Assembly (NCBI RefSeq): GCF_024362525.1
Contig: NZ_CP101460.1
Coordinates: 62,001-126,000, forward strand
Source of the DNA: Natrononativus amylolyticus
Lineage (GTDB): Archaea; Halobacteriota; Halobacteria; Halobacteriales; Natrialbaceae
DNA length: 64,000 bases
Direction: 5' to 3'
Part shown: positions 7,934 to 54,607 of the stretch, piece by piece
Layout of the letters: each line of letters opens with the position of its first letter
How positions within the stretch are numbered: position 1 is the stretch's first letter
Notes under the pieces: model-generated
What the model was told of the DNA's origin: nothing
Databases searched by the model: none
The model's input: only the letters and a program-made list of their open reading frames with translations
Program-made: the position numbers and the translations under genes

Positions 7934-8488
7934 GTGGGTCTAGTCGCAACACCTCTTACTACACGAGTCGTCTACAGAGTTGGCACTGTACGTGAGTTAA
8001 CAGTCACCACAGGTTTTACAACCGTGGAGGGATATTGTTCGTCTGTCGCCGGACTATAGCACGTCCTGGCGTTCGTCACCGAGTATCGCTTACCCGCGAG
8101 ATACGAACAGCCGGTCACGCGACCTCGTAGAAACGTGTGATGGCGAGGAAGACGAGGCTCCGTCCCCATTCCCTCGCGTGACCACTCGTTCCCCGGTAAC
8201 TACCCCCCGATGCTAACGAACCACCACCGTTAGCAGATTATTTCCAACCCCCTGCTACGTTCGCGTTTTGCATCTCCCAGACGTTTAGTGAACTGCCGAA
8301 CCGCTGTCAGTAACGGTGTGTAACAGCCAGAGCACGAGTGTAGCCGACGGGTGGCTTTATTTCACCCTTCCAACGCTGATGTACCCGAAAGGGAACCTGC
8401 GTATCGACCACTGGACGTTCTATCAGGACAAATAAATGTCCAGAGTTTTATTCAGAATTTAAAGTGTGAATATATCACAAGTATCAGA
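7934..8488. other. intergenic composition boundary with hairpins
   Basis: No gene is evident in these 550 bases. An inverted repeat TGCTAACG (8211-8218) / CGTTAGCA (8228-8235) could form a stem-loop. A second small one, GGACA / TGTCC, lies at 8426-8441. The AT-rich run ends near 8480, after which GC content jumps and stays high. This is the right edge of the GC-poorer segment. Confidence 0.5.
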
Positions 8489-8630
8489 TCAATCGTTGTG
8501 GTACTCTTCGGCCTCGTAAAACGTTTTGAGGGGGCTCGATCTCGTCGTCGTAGACGCCCGCAACCTCGAGTTCCTCGAGCCCCGCCTCGATACACCAGAA
8601 ACCGCCGCCGCCGAACGTTGCGCGTTCCAT
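8489..8630 (-). pseudogene. msrA relic, catalytic cysteine lost
   Basis: The minus strand opens with MERATFGGGGFWCIEAGLEE, an MsrA N-terminus in which the catalytic Cys of GCFW has become Gly. It then jumps to DDEIEP and, after one missing base, to LKTFYEAEEYHND and a stop. The middle of the gene, about 100 codons, and the last part are absent. The relic is GC-rich, unlike the intact msrA at 5580-6119, and it starts right at the composition boundary. It most likely is the resident copy left to decay. Confidence 0.85.
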
Positions 8631-50363: not shown

Positions 50364-51356
50364 TTACCAGTCGAGGCTGCCTCCACTCTGGTATTCCGTC
50401 ACCTGCGTCTCGAAGAAGTTCTTTTCTTTGTTCAGGTCGACCTGTTCGGACATCCACGGAAACGGGTTTTCTGTCCCGTACTGTGCCGATAAGTCGAGTT
50501 GCCCAAGTCGCCGGTCTGCGATGTGTTCGACGTATTCGGCGAACTGCTCGGCACTCATTCCGAGGATTCCGTCAGGACATGCCTCGTAGGCGTAGATTTT
50601 CTCTAACTCGACAGCCTCAGTTATCAGGTCGACCACTTCGTCACCGAACTCGTCGGTCCACACACCAGGATTCTCCGTCCGGATCTGGTCGATAAGATCA
50701 ACCCCAAACCCCAGATGGAGTGACTCATCGCGCATGATGTACTCGAACTGTTGACCAACGCCAACCATCTTATTCTGGCGTTTCAGGCCAAGCATCATCG
50801 CGAATCCGGCGTAGAAGAAAATCCCCTCCATGATGACGTAGAAGCCGACGAGGTCACGGAGGAAGTTCCGCAAGTCCTCGTCAGTCTCGATGGTGAACCC
50901 GTTTTTGTTGATCACCTGCGTCAAGTCGACCACGAATTCGTCTTTCTCCTTGATCGAGGGGACCCGGTCGTACATCCCGTAGAGGTACTCGGGGTCGAAT
51001 CCGAGCGAATCACAACAGTAAATGAACGTGTCCGTGTGAATCGCTTCCTCGTAGGCTTGACGGAGCAGGTACTGGCGGCACTCGGGTGCGGTGACGTGAT
51101 CATACACTGCCAGGACGATGTTGTTAGCTGTCAGGGACTCGGCCGTCGAGAAAAATCCGAGGTTCCACTCGATGAGCTGTCGCTCGGCATCCGAGAGGGC
51201 GTCACCGTTCCACTGGGTAACGTCGTCTTGCATCGGAATCTCCTCGGGCACCCAGTTGTTGTTGACTCCGGCTTCGTAGTACTCTCGAGCCCAGTCGTAG
51301 TCGATCGGCAGTATCTTGTTCGGATCGTGTTCGGCGTCGGTGTTGATGATCGGCAT
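50364..51356 (-). CDS. nrdB: ribonucleotide reductase radical subunit NrdB, class Ic signature
   Basis: A 330-residue R2 protein that stores the radical-generating cofactor for ribonucleotide reduction. Metal ligands can be read as Glu73, Glu104, His107, Glu177, Glu211 and His214. The first ligand is Glu instead of the Asp of class Ia. The residue at the tyrosyl radical position is Phe111 (YEEAIHTDTFIY). Both changes are those of Chlamydia-type class Ic enzymes, which use a manganese/iron centre. As I remember the Chlamydia numbering, all seven positions fit with a constant offset of 16. The gene follows nrdA after 53 bases. Confidence 0.95.
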   Translation of the reverse strand: MPIINTDAEHDPNKILPIDYDWAREYYEAGVNNNWVPEEIPMQDDVTQWNGDALSDAERQLIEWNLGFFSTAESLTANNIVLAVYDHVTAPECRQYLLRQAYEEAIHTDTFIYCCDSLGFDPEYLYGMYDRVPSIKEKDEFVVDLTQVINKNGFTIETDEDLRNFLRDLVGFYVIMEGIFFYAGFAMMLGLKRQNKMVGVGQQFEYIMRDESLHLGFGVDLIDQIRTENPGVWTDEFGDEVVDLITEAVELEKIYAYEACPDGILGMSAEQFAEYVEHIADRRLGQLDLSAQYGTENPFPWMSEQVDLNKEKNFFETQVTEYQSGGSLDW

Positions 51357-51409
51357 TGTCGTAGTGATTGAGGAGAGGTTGTTGATTGAGGGGTGGTTAT
51401 TTGCGCGTG

Positions 51410-53899
51410 TTATTGACAAGCTTCGCACGTCGGATCCTCAACTTTGCAGAGGTCGTCCTCGTCGGCGGGACGACCGGCGTCGGACCCGATCTTCTCTGAG
51501 GAAGAATCACTTCGGTGCTGTGTCTTGCCATACTCTGACATGTCCAGCGTGGATTTCTCGATCTGGGATGCTCCGAGGGTGCGGAGATAGTACGTCGTCT
51601 TCAGACCCAGTTCCCACGCGGTCTCATAGACGTCCGTCAGGAGAGACCCGTCTGTTGACGGGAAGAAGACGTTGTGCGAGACGGACTGGTCGATCCACGT
51701 CTGTCGGTGTGCAGTCAGTCGAATCTGGTGGCGTGGGTCGATTTCGAACGCACCACGGTAGCGGTGCTTCAGTTCGTCCGGGATCGCGTCGATCTCCTGA
51801 ATCGATCCGTCGTGGTACTTGATACGATCGACCATCTCTTCGTCCCAGAGGTCCAGTTCTTGCAGATCTTCGACGAGCTGGTCGTTGATAATCGTGAAAT
51901 CACCCGACATATTCGACTTCACGTACAAATTCGAATACAGCGGTTCAATGGACGGCGTCGTCCCGTTGATCGTAGAGACGGTTGCCGTCGGTGCGATGGC
52001 CATCGTGTTCGAATTTCGCATCCCGTGCTCTTCGACGTGTTCTCGGACGACGTACCAGTCGAGCGTCTCCTCGCGGTCAGTCGGAATCTCGCGACCACGT
52101 TCTCTCTCGAGGCGGTCGACGGTATCGTGGGGAAGCAGGCCGCGGTCCCACTTCGAACCCTTGTACGAGGGGTACGGGCTCCGCTCCGCTGCGAGCTTCG
52201 AGGAGTTGAGAATCGCGTGATAGGAGACGAACTCCTGCCAGCGGTTGGCCTTCTCCACCGCCGCTTCGGAATCCATCGGAACCTCCAGTTGCAGTAAGGC
52301 GTCGTGAAAGCCCATCGTACCGAGTCCCACGGGTCGATGCTGCATGTTCGAGCGTTCAGCCTCGTCGGTCGGGTAGAAACAGCGGTCGACGACGTTGTCG
52401 AGCATCCGCATCGCGGTCTCGATGGTCTCTGCGAGGTACTCACGGTCGAGCCTCGCGGTCGAGCCAGACCGCTCGGTCTCCGCGGAACGGTGTTCCGCGC
52501 TCCCCCCGCCTGAGACGTGGGTGGCGAGGTTCACACTCCCCAGGTTACAAACAGCGTGCTCGTCTGCACTCGTGTTGAGCGTGATCTCTGTACAGAGATT
52601 CGAGGAGTGGACCGTCCCGACGTGGTCCTGTGGGGAGCGAACGTTGCAGGGGTCTTTGAACGTCAGCCACGGATGGCCCGTCTCGAACAGTCGCGTGAGC
52701 ATCTTCCGCCAGAGCTCCTCGGCGTCGACGCGTTCGTACTGTCTGAGTTCGCCCTCGTCGGCCCGCTGCTCGTATTCGCGGTAGCGCTCTTCGAACGCCT
52801 CACCGGAGAGGTCGTGGAGGTCCGGGACTTCGTCGGGGCTGAACAGCGTCCACTGCTCGCCGTTTTCGACGCGCTTCATGAAGAGATCCGGAATCCACGC
52901 AGCCGTGTTCATATCCGGTGTGCGGCGACGCTCGTCGCCGGTGTTCCGCTTGAGGTCAGTGAACGCCGGGAAATCGAGGTGCCAGCAGGCCAGGTACGCA
53001 CACGCGGCCCCGCGACGTTTTCCGGAGCGGTTGATGGCAGCCGTGACGTCGTTGCTGATCCGGAGAAACGGAACGACACCGGTCGACTCCACGCCCGTAC
53101 TCTCGATGAGTGCGCCCGCCGACCGGAGGTTCGTCCAGTCGGTGCCGAGCCCGCCGCTCCACTTCGAGAGCTGTGCGTGATGTTTGTACGAGTCGAAGAT
53201 GTTCTCGAGGTCGTCCTGTACTGTCGTCAGGTAACACGAGGAGAGCTGGGGATGGGTCGAGCCGCTGTGGAACAGCGTCGGCGTCGAGGGCGTAAACTCC
53301 AGTTTCGAGAGGACGTCGTAGAACTCCTTGGCACGCTCTTGTGGCTCGTCTTCCTCGATCGCGATCCCCATCGCGATCCGCATCCAGAACGCCTGCGGGA
53401 GTTCGAGGTGGTCTCCGTTTTGCTCGGTCTTGAGGAAATACCGCTGGTACAGCGTCTCCATTGCCATGTACTCGAACGTCCGGTCGCGCTCGAGTTCGAG
53501 GTAGTCGGCGAGATCGTCGAGGTCAAATCGTTCGGTGAGGCGCTCGTCAAGAAGATCGAGGTCGACGGCACGGTGAAGATTCGTGATGAACGTCTCGCGG
53601 TATGCGCGGTCGAGTTCGAATCCAGCCAGATCCTCGCCGAGTATCTCGTGGTAGTATCGCTGCCGGAAGACTGCGGCTGCGACGCGTTTGAGCTTCGGCT
53701 CGACCTCCACGCGCGCGGTCAGCGCGTGGATAGTAGCCCGGTACACCTCATCGGTGGATGCACCATCGTAGAGGGTGCGCTCGATCTCGGTGAGCAGATC
53801 GTCCCAGTCTGCTGGAGTAAGAGTCGTCTCGATGTCAGTGCGTGCGCGGTCGATGATCGATCGGCTATCGAGAGTCGTTGCGGTAGGTTGCTGGCTCAT
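51410..53899 (-). CDS. nrdA: ribonucleotide reductase catalytic subunit NrdA
   Basis: An 829-residue R1 protein reducing ribonucleotides. The active-site cysteines are Cys222 (HPQLSSCYL), the thiyl Cys436 (SNLCTEI) and Cys451 (AVCNLGSVNL). The tyrosine pair of the radical path is in KTTYYLRT, and the redox tail ends CEACQ. The N-terminus seems to lack the first strands of an ATP cone (no KRDG motif), so overall activity control may be reduced. Residues about 463-483 are a GC-rich insert (GGGSAEHRSAETERSGSTAR) encoded by paired hairpins. It overlaps nrdR by four bases. Confidence 0.95.
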   Translation of the reverse strand: MSQQPTATTLDSRSIIDRARTDIETTLTPADWDDLLTEIERTLYDGASTDEVYRATIHALTARVEVEPKLKRVAAAVFRQRYYHEILGEDLAGFELDRAYRETFITNLHRAVDLDLLDERLTERFDLDDLADYLELERDRTFEYMAMETLYQRYFLKTEQNGDHLELPQAFWMRIAMGIAIEEDEPQERAKEFYDVLSKLEFTPSTPTLFHSGSTHPQLSSCYLTTVQDDLENIFDSYKHHAQLSKWSGGLGTDWTNLRSAGALIESTGVESTGVVPFLRISNDVTAAINRSGKRRGAACAYLACWHLDFPAFTDLKRNTGDERRRTPDMNTAAWIPDLFMKRVENGEQWTLFSPDEVPDLHDLSGEAFEERYREYEQRADEGELRQYERVDAEELWRKMLTRLFETGHPWLTFKDPCNVRSPQDHVGTVHSSNLCTEITLNTSADEHAVCNLGSVNLATHVSGGGSAEHRSAETERSGSTARLDREYLAETIETAMRMLDNVVDRCFYPTDEAERSNMQHRPVGLGTMGFHDALLQLEVPMDSEAAVEKANRWQEFVSYHAILNSSKLAAERSPYPSYKGSKWDRGLLPHDTVDRLERERGREIPTDREETLDWYVVREHVEEHGMRNSNTMAIAPTATVSTINGTTPSIEPLYSNLYVKSNMSGDFTIINDQLVEDLQELDLWDEEMVDRIKYHDGSIQEIDAIPDELKHRYRGAFEIDPRHQIRLTAHRQTWIDQSVSHNVFFPSTDGSLLTDVYETAWELGLKTTYYLRTLGASQIEKSTLDMSEYGKTQHRSDSSSEKIGSDAGRPADEDDLCKVEDPTCEACQ
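52466..52499. repeat. pair of hairpins inside nrdA, translated in frame
   Basis: AGACCG (52466-52471) and CGGTCT (52474-52479) pair around CT. CGCGGAAC (52481-52488) and GTTCCGCG (52492-52499) pair around GGT. Together they code for most of a 20-residue stretch about 11 residues after Cys451 of NrdA. They are much more GC-rich than the gene around them. Confidence 0.65.
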
Positions 53900-54399
53900 G
53901 TGTTAGGCGATTGGTCGTCTGCTGTCGCTGGTTCGAAGTCTTCGACTTCGGAATCGAGGACTGCATCAAGTTCGCGAAGGAACTCTTCGGGTTCGGAGAA
54001 GGCCCTGTAGACCGAGACGAATCGGATGTACGCGACTTTGTCGACGTCGCGTAACCGTCCGGAGACGAGTTCGCCGATGAGACTCGACGAGACGATGCGT
54101 GTCTCTCGATCTTGAAGTGCGCTCTCGATGTCGTCTACGAGATTCGTCACTGTTGGCTCGGACACGTTACGCTTCTCTACAGCTCGTTCGATCCCTGCAC
54201 GAAGTTTCGCACGGTCGAAGGGTTCGATGGTTCCATCGCGTTTTTTCACCTGGAGGGAGTCCCACTCCGGACGTTCGTAGGTCGTGAAGCGGAACGAACA
54301 TCGCTGACACTCACGACGCCGTCGAACCGATGTTCCGTCGGCGCTCGTCTCGGTATCGATGACGCGTGTTCGCTCATCCCCGCAGTCCGGGCAGTCCAT
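53896..54399 (-). CDS. nrdR: transcriptional repressor NrdR
   Basis: A 167-residue NrdR with a zinc ribbon (Cys3, Cys6, Cys31, Cys34) and an ATP cone (about 50-140, VKKRDGTIEPFDRAKL). NrdR senses adenine nucleotides and represses ribonucleotide reductase genes by binding paired palindromes. It is common in bacteria and found in some haloarchaea. Here it is the first gene of nrdR-nrdA-nrdB and its own promoter carries NrdR-box-like palindromes, so autoregulation of the operon is expected. The ATG at 54399 gives the standard MDCPDC start. Confidence 0.95.
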   Translation of the reverse strand: MDCPDCGDERTRVIDTETSADGTSVRRRRECQRCSFRFTTYERPEWDSLQVKKRDGTIEPFDRAKLRAGIERAVEKRNVSEPTVTNLVDDIESALQDRETRIVSSSLIGELVSGRLRDVDKVAYIRFVSVYRAFSEPEEFLRELDAVLDSEVEDFEPATADDQSPNT

Positions 54400-54431
54400 A
54401 GTTGTCACTAGTTGTCCCTCCAGCATCTTAG

Positions 54432-54474
54432 CCCCATATATGGGGGCCGTCGATTTTAGCCGCAATATCTGGTG
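54432..54474. promoter_or_regulatory. predicted tandem NrdR boxes over the nrdR promoter
   Basis: CCCCATATATGGGG (54432-54445) is a perfect 14-base palindrome whose core fits the bacterial NrdR-box consensus (C-x-ATATAT-x-G). A weaker copy, CAATATCTGG at 54463-54472, lies 29 bases further upstream on the same DNA face. The ATATAT core may also serve as TATA box, about 39 bases before the start codon, so binding would block the promoter directly. Confidence 0.6.
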
Positions 54475-54607
54475 CCAGCGCCACCCACATAAATCCTTCC
54501 AAGATAGGTTGGAGTAGTGCAACTGAGCTTGGATTGGGTGGGAATCGAGCAGATAGAATGGGACTATGCAAACCAGGAGCGGAGCGGTGTCAATCTCTGA
54601 AAAATGC

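Follow-up and report, generated by a model that had tools for sequence, protein, structure and literature searches.

We found that the region upstream of nrdR in the window (the whole 64-kb stretch of DNA that was analyzed) carries what is, from its sequence conservation, almost certainly a conserved pair of NrdR sites placed just downstream of an archaeal promoter. The two boxes, at 54431 to 54446 and 54460 to 54475, very probably constitute a paired operator through which NrdR would repress the nrdR-nrdA-nrdB operon that includes its own gene, with the BRE and TATA elements lying apart from them; the binding and the repression in this reading are taken over from bacterial NrdR. The haloarchaeal operator is a variant of the bacterial NrdR system. 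The genes and control elements of the locus are the following.

50364 to 51428, minus strand: nrdB, class I ribonucleotide reductase (RNR) small subunit (PRK07209, 546 bits; PF00268).
51410 to 53899, minus strand: nrdA, class I RNR large subunit (PRK07207, 1,092 bits; TIGR02506), with an ATGA overlap with nrdR.
53896 to 54408, minus strand: nrdR, transcriptional repressor (TIGR00244, 166 bits; Zn_ribbon_NrdR and ATP-cone Pfam domains), with an alternative ATG at 54399.
54417 to 54421, minus strand: Shine-Dalgarno-like GGAGG (GGAGG in 32 of 66 relatives, GGAG or GAGG in 43 of 66).
54431 to 54446, minus strand: predicted proximal NrdR box, CCCCCATATATGGGGC, which holds the palindrome at 54432 to 54445.
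54460 to 54475, minus strand: predicted distal NrdR box, GCACCAGATATTGCGG, more conserved than any other element of the promoter; the predicted transcription start overlaps it.
54463 to 54466, minus strand: predicted transcription start region, placed 24 to 28 nt from the center of the TATA box and falling inside the distal box.
54488 to 54493, minus strand: TATA box TTTATG; of the 63 aligned haloarchaeal promoters, 62 have TTTA or TTAA in this same place.
54494 to 54502, minus strand: BRE-like element TTGGAAGGA, of the GGGAAG type, which is conserved and adjoins the TATA box on its 5' side.
54499 to 54531, minus strand: upstream element CAAGCTCAGTTGCACTACTCCAACCTATCTTGG (CAA-N6-TTG-N8-CAA), a candidate activator site common to class II nrdJ and cobalamin genes.

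In the product of nrdR, a zinc ribbon with two CxxC motifs precedes an ATP cone, the architecture by which the family is recognized. It scores 166 bits against the TIGR00244 cut-off of 124.65, exceeds the cut-offs of both PF22811 and PF03477, and matches solved NrdR structures at an E value of about 1e-32. Its RRRR motif (VRRRREC) is kept in almost all relatives, and its D15 is kept in nearly all of them. The window lies on a 241-kb contig, and a class II reductase is encoded on a 2.98-Mb contig of the same genome.

The original prediction centered on a perfect palindrome, CCCCATATATGGGG (window positions 54432 to 54445), said to lie 32 bases before nrdR; this distance is correct when taken to the ATG at 54399 of the minus-strand gene, and the gap to the preferred GTG start at 54408 is 23 bases. 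A second copy 29 bases away was likewise confirmed as the minus-strand distal box, with the distance measured from center to center. Its description as a weaker copy is apt in that the distal box is the less perfect palindrome, but it does not extend to conservation across haloarchaea, in which the distal box is the better conserved of the two. The segment initially singled out as the operator takes in the palindrome and the distal box, and the TATA box and the elements 5' of it fall outside that segment. With up to three mismatches allowed, the palindrome occurs once in the window, and its only exact copy in the 3.99-Mb genome is at this site. The paired-box pattern likewise has a single occurrence in the window, where our operator model R1 matches positions 54432 to 54474 with 42.2 bits, and a profile of the pair searched against the whole genome recovers this site only, even at E ≤ 10 (E = 2.6e-10). 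The box pair is far beyond chance, and a chance palindrome was rejected as an explanation. Both boxes show a C-N8-G palindromic core around ATATAT (CCATATATGG and CCAGATATTG); the flanks of the proximal box are of the CCC/GGG type and do not match the bacterial consensus ACA/TGT. The pair sits in the promoter of an RNR operon, with nrdR-nrdA-nrdB directly downstream.

We then compared the upstream regions of nrdR orthologs from other haloarchaea, the check that had been proposed for the palindromes, and found the paired boxes in 63 of 66 distinct promoters (drawn from 77 loci), these 63 being alignable when anchored on the distal box. In the alignment, the distal box has the consensus CACCAnATATTGCGG, with most core columns at 95 to 98%, and the proximal box is kept as CCCCAnATATGGGGT. 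The box centers are separated by 29 bp in 30 of the 63 promoters and by 30 bp in 27, with a spacer of 13 to 14 bp; the number of helical turns is that of the bacterial pairs, and the spacer stands at the lower edge of their range or slightly under it. The gene itself was found in 63 of 391 sampled genomes of the class Halobacteria, and a wider sample of the phylum yielded, above the family cut-off, halobacterial matches plus a single one at the edge of a contig, the assembly being incomplete and 5% contaminated. The pair profile, a sequence-only model built from nrdR promoters, was run over the same 391 genomes and matched 53 of the 63 that have nrdR, as opposed to 5 of the 328 that lack it; nrdR promoters match this profile by construction, and the informative part is its near absence elsewhere. 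One of the five genomes matched without nrdR (G381) has a contig edge directly after the operator, another (G172) holds a deletion relic in which the operator is followed by only four codons of nrdR, and the other three matches (E = 0.003 to 0.009) are about as many as expected by chance. Conserved upstream of nrdR orthologs and tracking the presence of the gene, the pair supports the proposed bacterial-type NrdR operator.

Four class I nrdA promoters from genomes lacking nrdR (L223, L238, L243, and L278) are devoid of NrdR boxes and retain the upstream element, the BRE, and the TATA box. At two loci where nrdR is truncated or degraded (L161 and L162, from G034 and G091), the boxes are eroding and their cores are being lost.

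The individual loci offered some further observations. At L161 and L162, the nrdA gene downstream of the damaged nrdR still reads through. At the deletion relic (L159:7001-7045), the boxes and leader are recognizable before the four-codon nrdR, and no nrdA or nrdB is present in the 9 kb read. A Haloquadratum MAG (L006) shows stops and frameshifts in nrdA, with an nrdR and an operator that look intact. Two loci (L117 and L208) encode an NrdR with Ser in place of Asp15; there the proximal box is kept and the distal box is not recognizable. One genome (G340) has two nrdR copies on a single 167-kb contig (L078 and L094), and their operators score equally.

Read 5' to 3', the aligned promoters carry the upstream element and a GGGAAG-type BRE, followed by TTTATG; a stretch without conservation leads from there to the distal box, and a variable spacer separates the distal box from the proximal one. 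In haloarchaea, TTWT has been published as the TATA motif and CGAAA as the BRE motif (PMC4983044). The palindrome is predicted to lie in the leader and not on the TATA box. This predicted leader is ~55 nt long and has the GGAGG 8 nt before the GTG at 54408, which is probably the start of nrdR in preference to the ATG at 54399, because 47 of 66 relatives preserve a V-T-T before the annotated ATG and ATA replaces this ATG in one relative.

The haloarchaeal system resembles the NrdR-NrdR box system of bacteria such as Streptomyces coelicolor, Escherichia coli, and Listeria in its zinc ribbon plus ATP-cone repressor, in its two C-N8-G palindromes with an ATATAT core set about three helical turns apart, and in its placement at the promoter of an RNR operon, the bacterial systems being often autoregulated. 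It differs in having a promoter of the archaeal TBP/TFB type, in its flanks and spacing (CCC/GGG with box centers 29 to 30 bp apart, versus ACA/TGT and 31 bp in bacteria), in having one recognized target in the genome of the window, and in residue 17 of the repressor. In Streptomyces NrdR, D15 and R17 contact bases and the R17A substitution abolishes binding (PMC9110341); the importance of R17 is known from this one bacterium, S. coelicolor, and is not part of the curated definition of the NrdR family. The NrdR of the window has E17 in its place, and most haloarchaeal members carry Glu, Gly, Thr, or Ala. Position 5 of the distal box follows this residue: it is G or T in 9 of 9 loci with R17 and C in all 54 loci without it (63 loci). 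Loci fetched later gave the same picture, with no C in any of four clear R17 cases and C in eight of nine clear non-R17 cases (the exception is L185). The association is suggestive and falls short of formal proof, because on the tree residue 17 can be taken to have switched independently only about twice. We infer from it that haloarchaeal NrdRs read a changed code, in which residue 17 is no longer Arg and operator base 5 is C.

The promoter layout bears on a further part of the original prediction, by which the ATATAT core of the palindrome could itself be the TATA box, leaving NrdR and archaeal TBP to compete for the same bases. The position would suit such a promoter, as the center of the palindrome is ~27 nt before a point 3 to 4 nt upstream of the GTG, a distance that fits a transcript with almost no leader, and leaderless transcripts prevail among haloarchaeal genes. 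However, TTWT occurs in none of the 63 proximal boxes and none of the 63 distal boxes, and 54 of the 63 promoters have it at the TATA site, upstream of the distal box. Moreover, no conserved BRE precedes the palindrome in haloarchaeal nrdR promoters, the spacer between the boxes is variable, the core is often CACATATG in relatives, and a GGAGG before the start is conserved in many of them. With a separate conserved BRE and TATA box upstream of both palindromes, the core does not appear to be the TATA box, competition for shared bases is not supported, and we accord this arrangement very little probability. The palindrome, which is predicted to lie in the leader close ahead of the GGAGG, could alternatively act in the RNA as a hairpin with a CCCC/GGGG stem that controls translation. 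We rejected this as extremely improbable: the stem, no longer than 4 bp, is disrupted in many relatives (e.g., ACACCACATATAGGGT in L077), the ATAT core is conserved, and so is the distal box, for which no hairpin of this kind can be drawn.

That most haloarchaeal NrdRs lack Arg17 could also be taken to mean that the boxes bind another DNA-binding protein, one that merely co-occurs with nrdR. We regard this as very unlikely in view of the NrdR box anatomy of the sites (C-N8-G around ATATAT, paired at three helical turns), their occurrence only with nrdR or nrdR relics, and the change of base 5 along with residue 17 of NrdR. Features that count against an NrdR operator are the replacement of Arg17 by Glu, a spacing 1 to 2 bp below the bacterial optimum, and the CCC/GGG flanks. 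Bacterial boxes have centers 31 bp apart and spacers of 14 to 17 bp (PMC9110341 and PMC12051234), and with a 13-bp spacer the four bacterial NrdRs examined bind less well, the size of the loss differing among them (PMC12051234).

For the favored reading, autorepression by NrdR through the paired boxes, we propose a mechanism in which the binding, its dependence on ATP and dATP, the bending of DNA, and the repression are modeled on bacterial NrdR. In Streptomyces, NrdR tetramers loaded with dATP and ATP kink the DNA on binding to a pair of boxes that are three turns apart (PMC9110341). In the window, the BRE and TATA box (54488 to 54502) would recruit TBP and TFB, and transcription would start inside the distal box. 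At high dATP, an NrdR tetramer would occupy both boxes, which lie about three turns apart on one face of the helix, and the bound tetramer would bend the DNA. Situated over the start site and the early leader, it would block RNA polymerase at or just after the start and leave the TATA box free.

Haloarchaeal class I RNR operons were acquired from bacteria, as reported by Lundin et al. in 2010 (PMC3019208), who already described both the nrdR-nrdA-nrdB and the nrdR-nrdB-nrdA gene orders and the location of some of them on plasmids or second chromosomes. What our analysis adds to that account is the operator and the observation that a single nrdR-promoter cassette serves both types, with scars of in-place replacement. 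Two unrelated class I RNRs stand behind this nrdR and operator, nrdA-nrdB (about 70 to 92% identity to the window) and nrdB-nrdA (21 to 26%), and the boxes persist where an unrelated reductase has replaced the one downstream. The NrdRs associated with the two reductase types intermingle on the tree, with at least four changes. In Halosegnis rubeus (L004), nrdR is followed by a remnant of the old nrdA, its first 26 codons, and the new genes are followed by one of the old nrdB, its last 35 codons; therefore, the reductase was exchanged in situ while the old regulator stayed. These scars are at L004:5501-5575 and 8480-8584, and others were seen at L095, L099, L105, and L008. DNA related to nrdR or nrdA is also present on ten plasmid records.

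The upstream element has a distribution of its own. CAA-N6-TTG is present in 55 of 59 nrdR promoters, and a second CAA follows 20 nt after the first in 52 of those 55 (52 of 59 overall). Searches with the exact pattern recovered 93 sites in 79 of the 391 genomes, compared with 2 for a reversed control, and the sites lie mostly before RNR and cobalamin genes (loci L219 to L279). In the 60 loci that we read, the classed genes were class II nrdJ, class I RNR genes with or without nrdR, cobyrinic acid a,c-diamide synthase, cbiT, and cobT, together with one possible cobalt transporter that had no NCBIfam confirmation; 13 sites were not classed. Ahead of the class II nrdJ in the genome of the window, the element occurs with a single mismatch (L279, G000:C1:1877500-1880500), and it is this copy that needs the Y allowed at one C position of the element. 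Compared with class I promoters, most nrdJ promoters have an additional 10 bp, or one helical turn, between the element and the TATA box. The element looks like a control site shared by RNR and cobalamin genes, and we treat it as a candidate for that role. As to its regulator, TrmB was set aside since its published motif, TACT-N7-8-GAGTA, differs, and CdrS was considered, with no RNR gene seen among the ChIP targets listed for it. We are evenly divided on a wider proposal that a bacterial repressor-operator pair was rebuilt for an archaeal promoter, with the Arg17 contact lost, C5 recognized, and a phasing of 29 to 30 bp, and that the same promoter carries the site of a regulator coupling the class I RNR, the class II B12-dependent RNR, and cobalamin synthesis in haloarchaea at large.

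NrdR has been described as rare in archaea, and a 2014 review held NrdR boxes to be absent from them (PMC4009431). Our search of the openly accessible literature found no earlier work on haloarchaeal NrdR boxes. Contrary to that review, the predicted NrdR boxes appear to be conserved in most haloarchaea wherever nrdR is kept. Their arrangement shows how a bacterial repressor could act on an archaeal TBP/TFB promoter, that is, at or downstream of the transcription start and not on the TATA box. The natural replacement of Arg17, together with the matching base change in the operator, makes the NrdR recognition code directly testable. A second activator of cobalamin genes has been inferred in Halobacterium (PMC3794607), for which the upstream element is a candidate site, and the element might also account for the reported finding that nrdJ and cobalamin genes are induced together on virus infection (PMC12542753).
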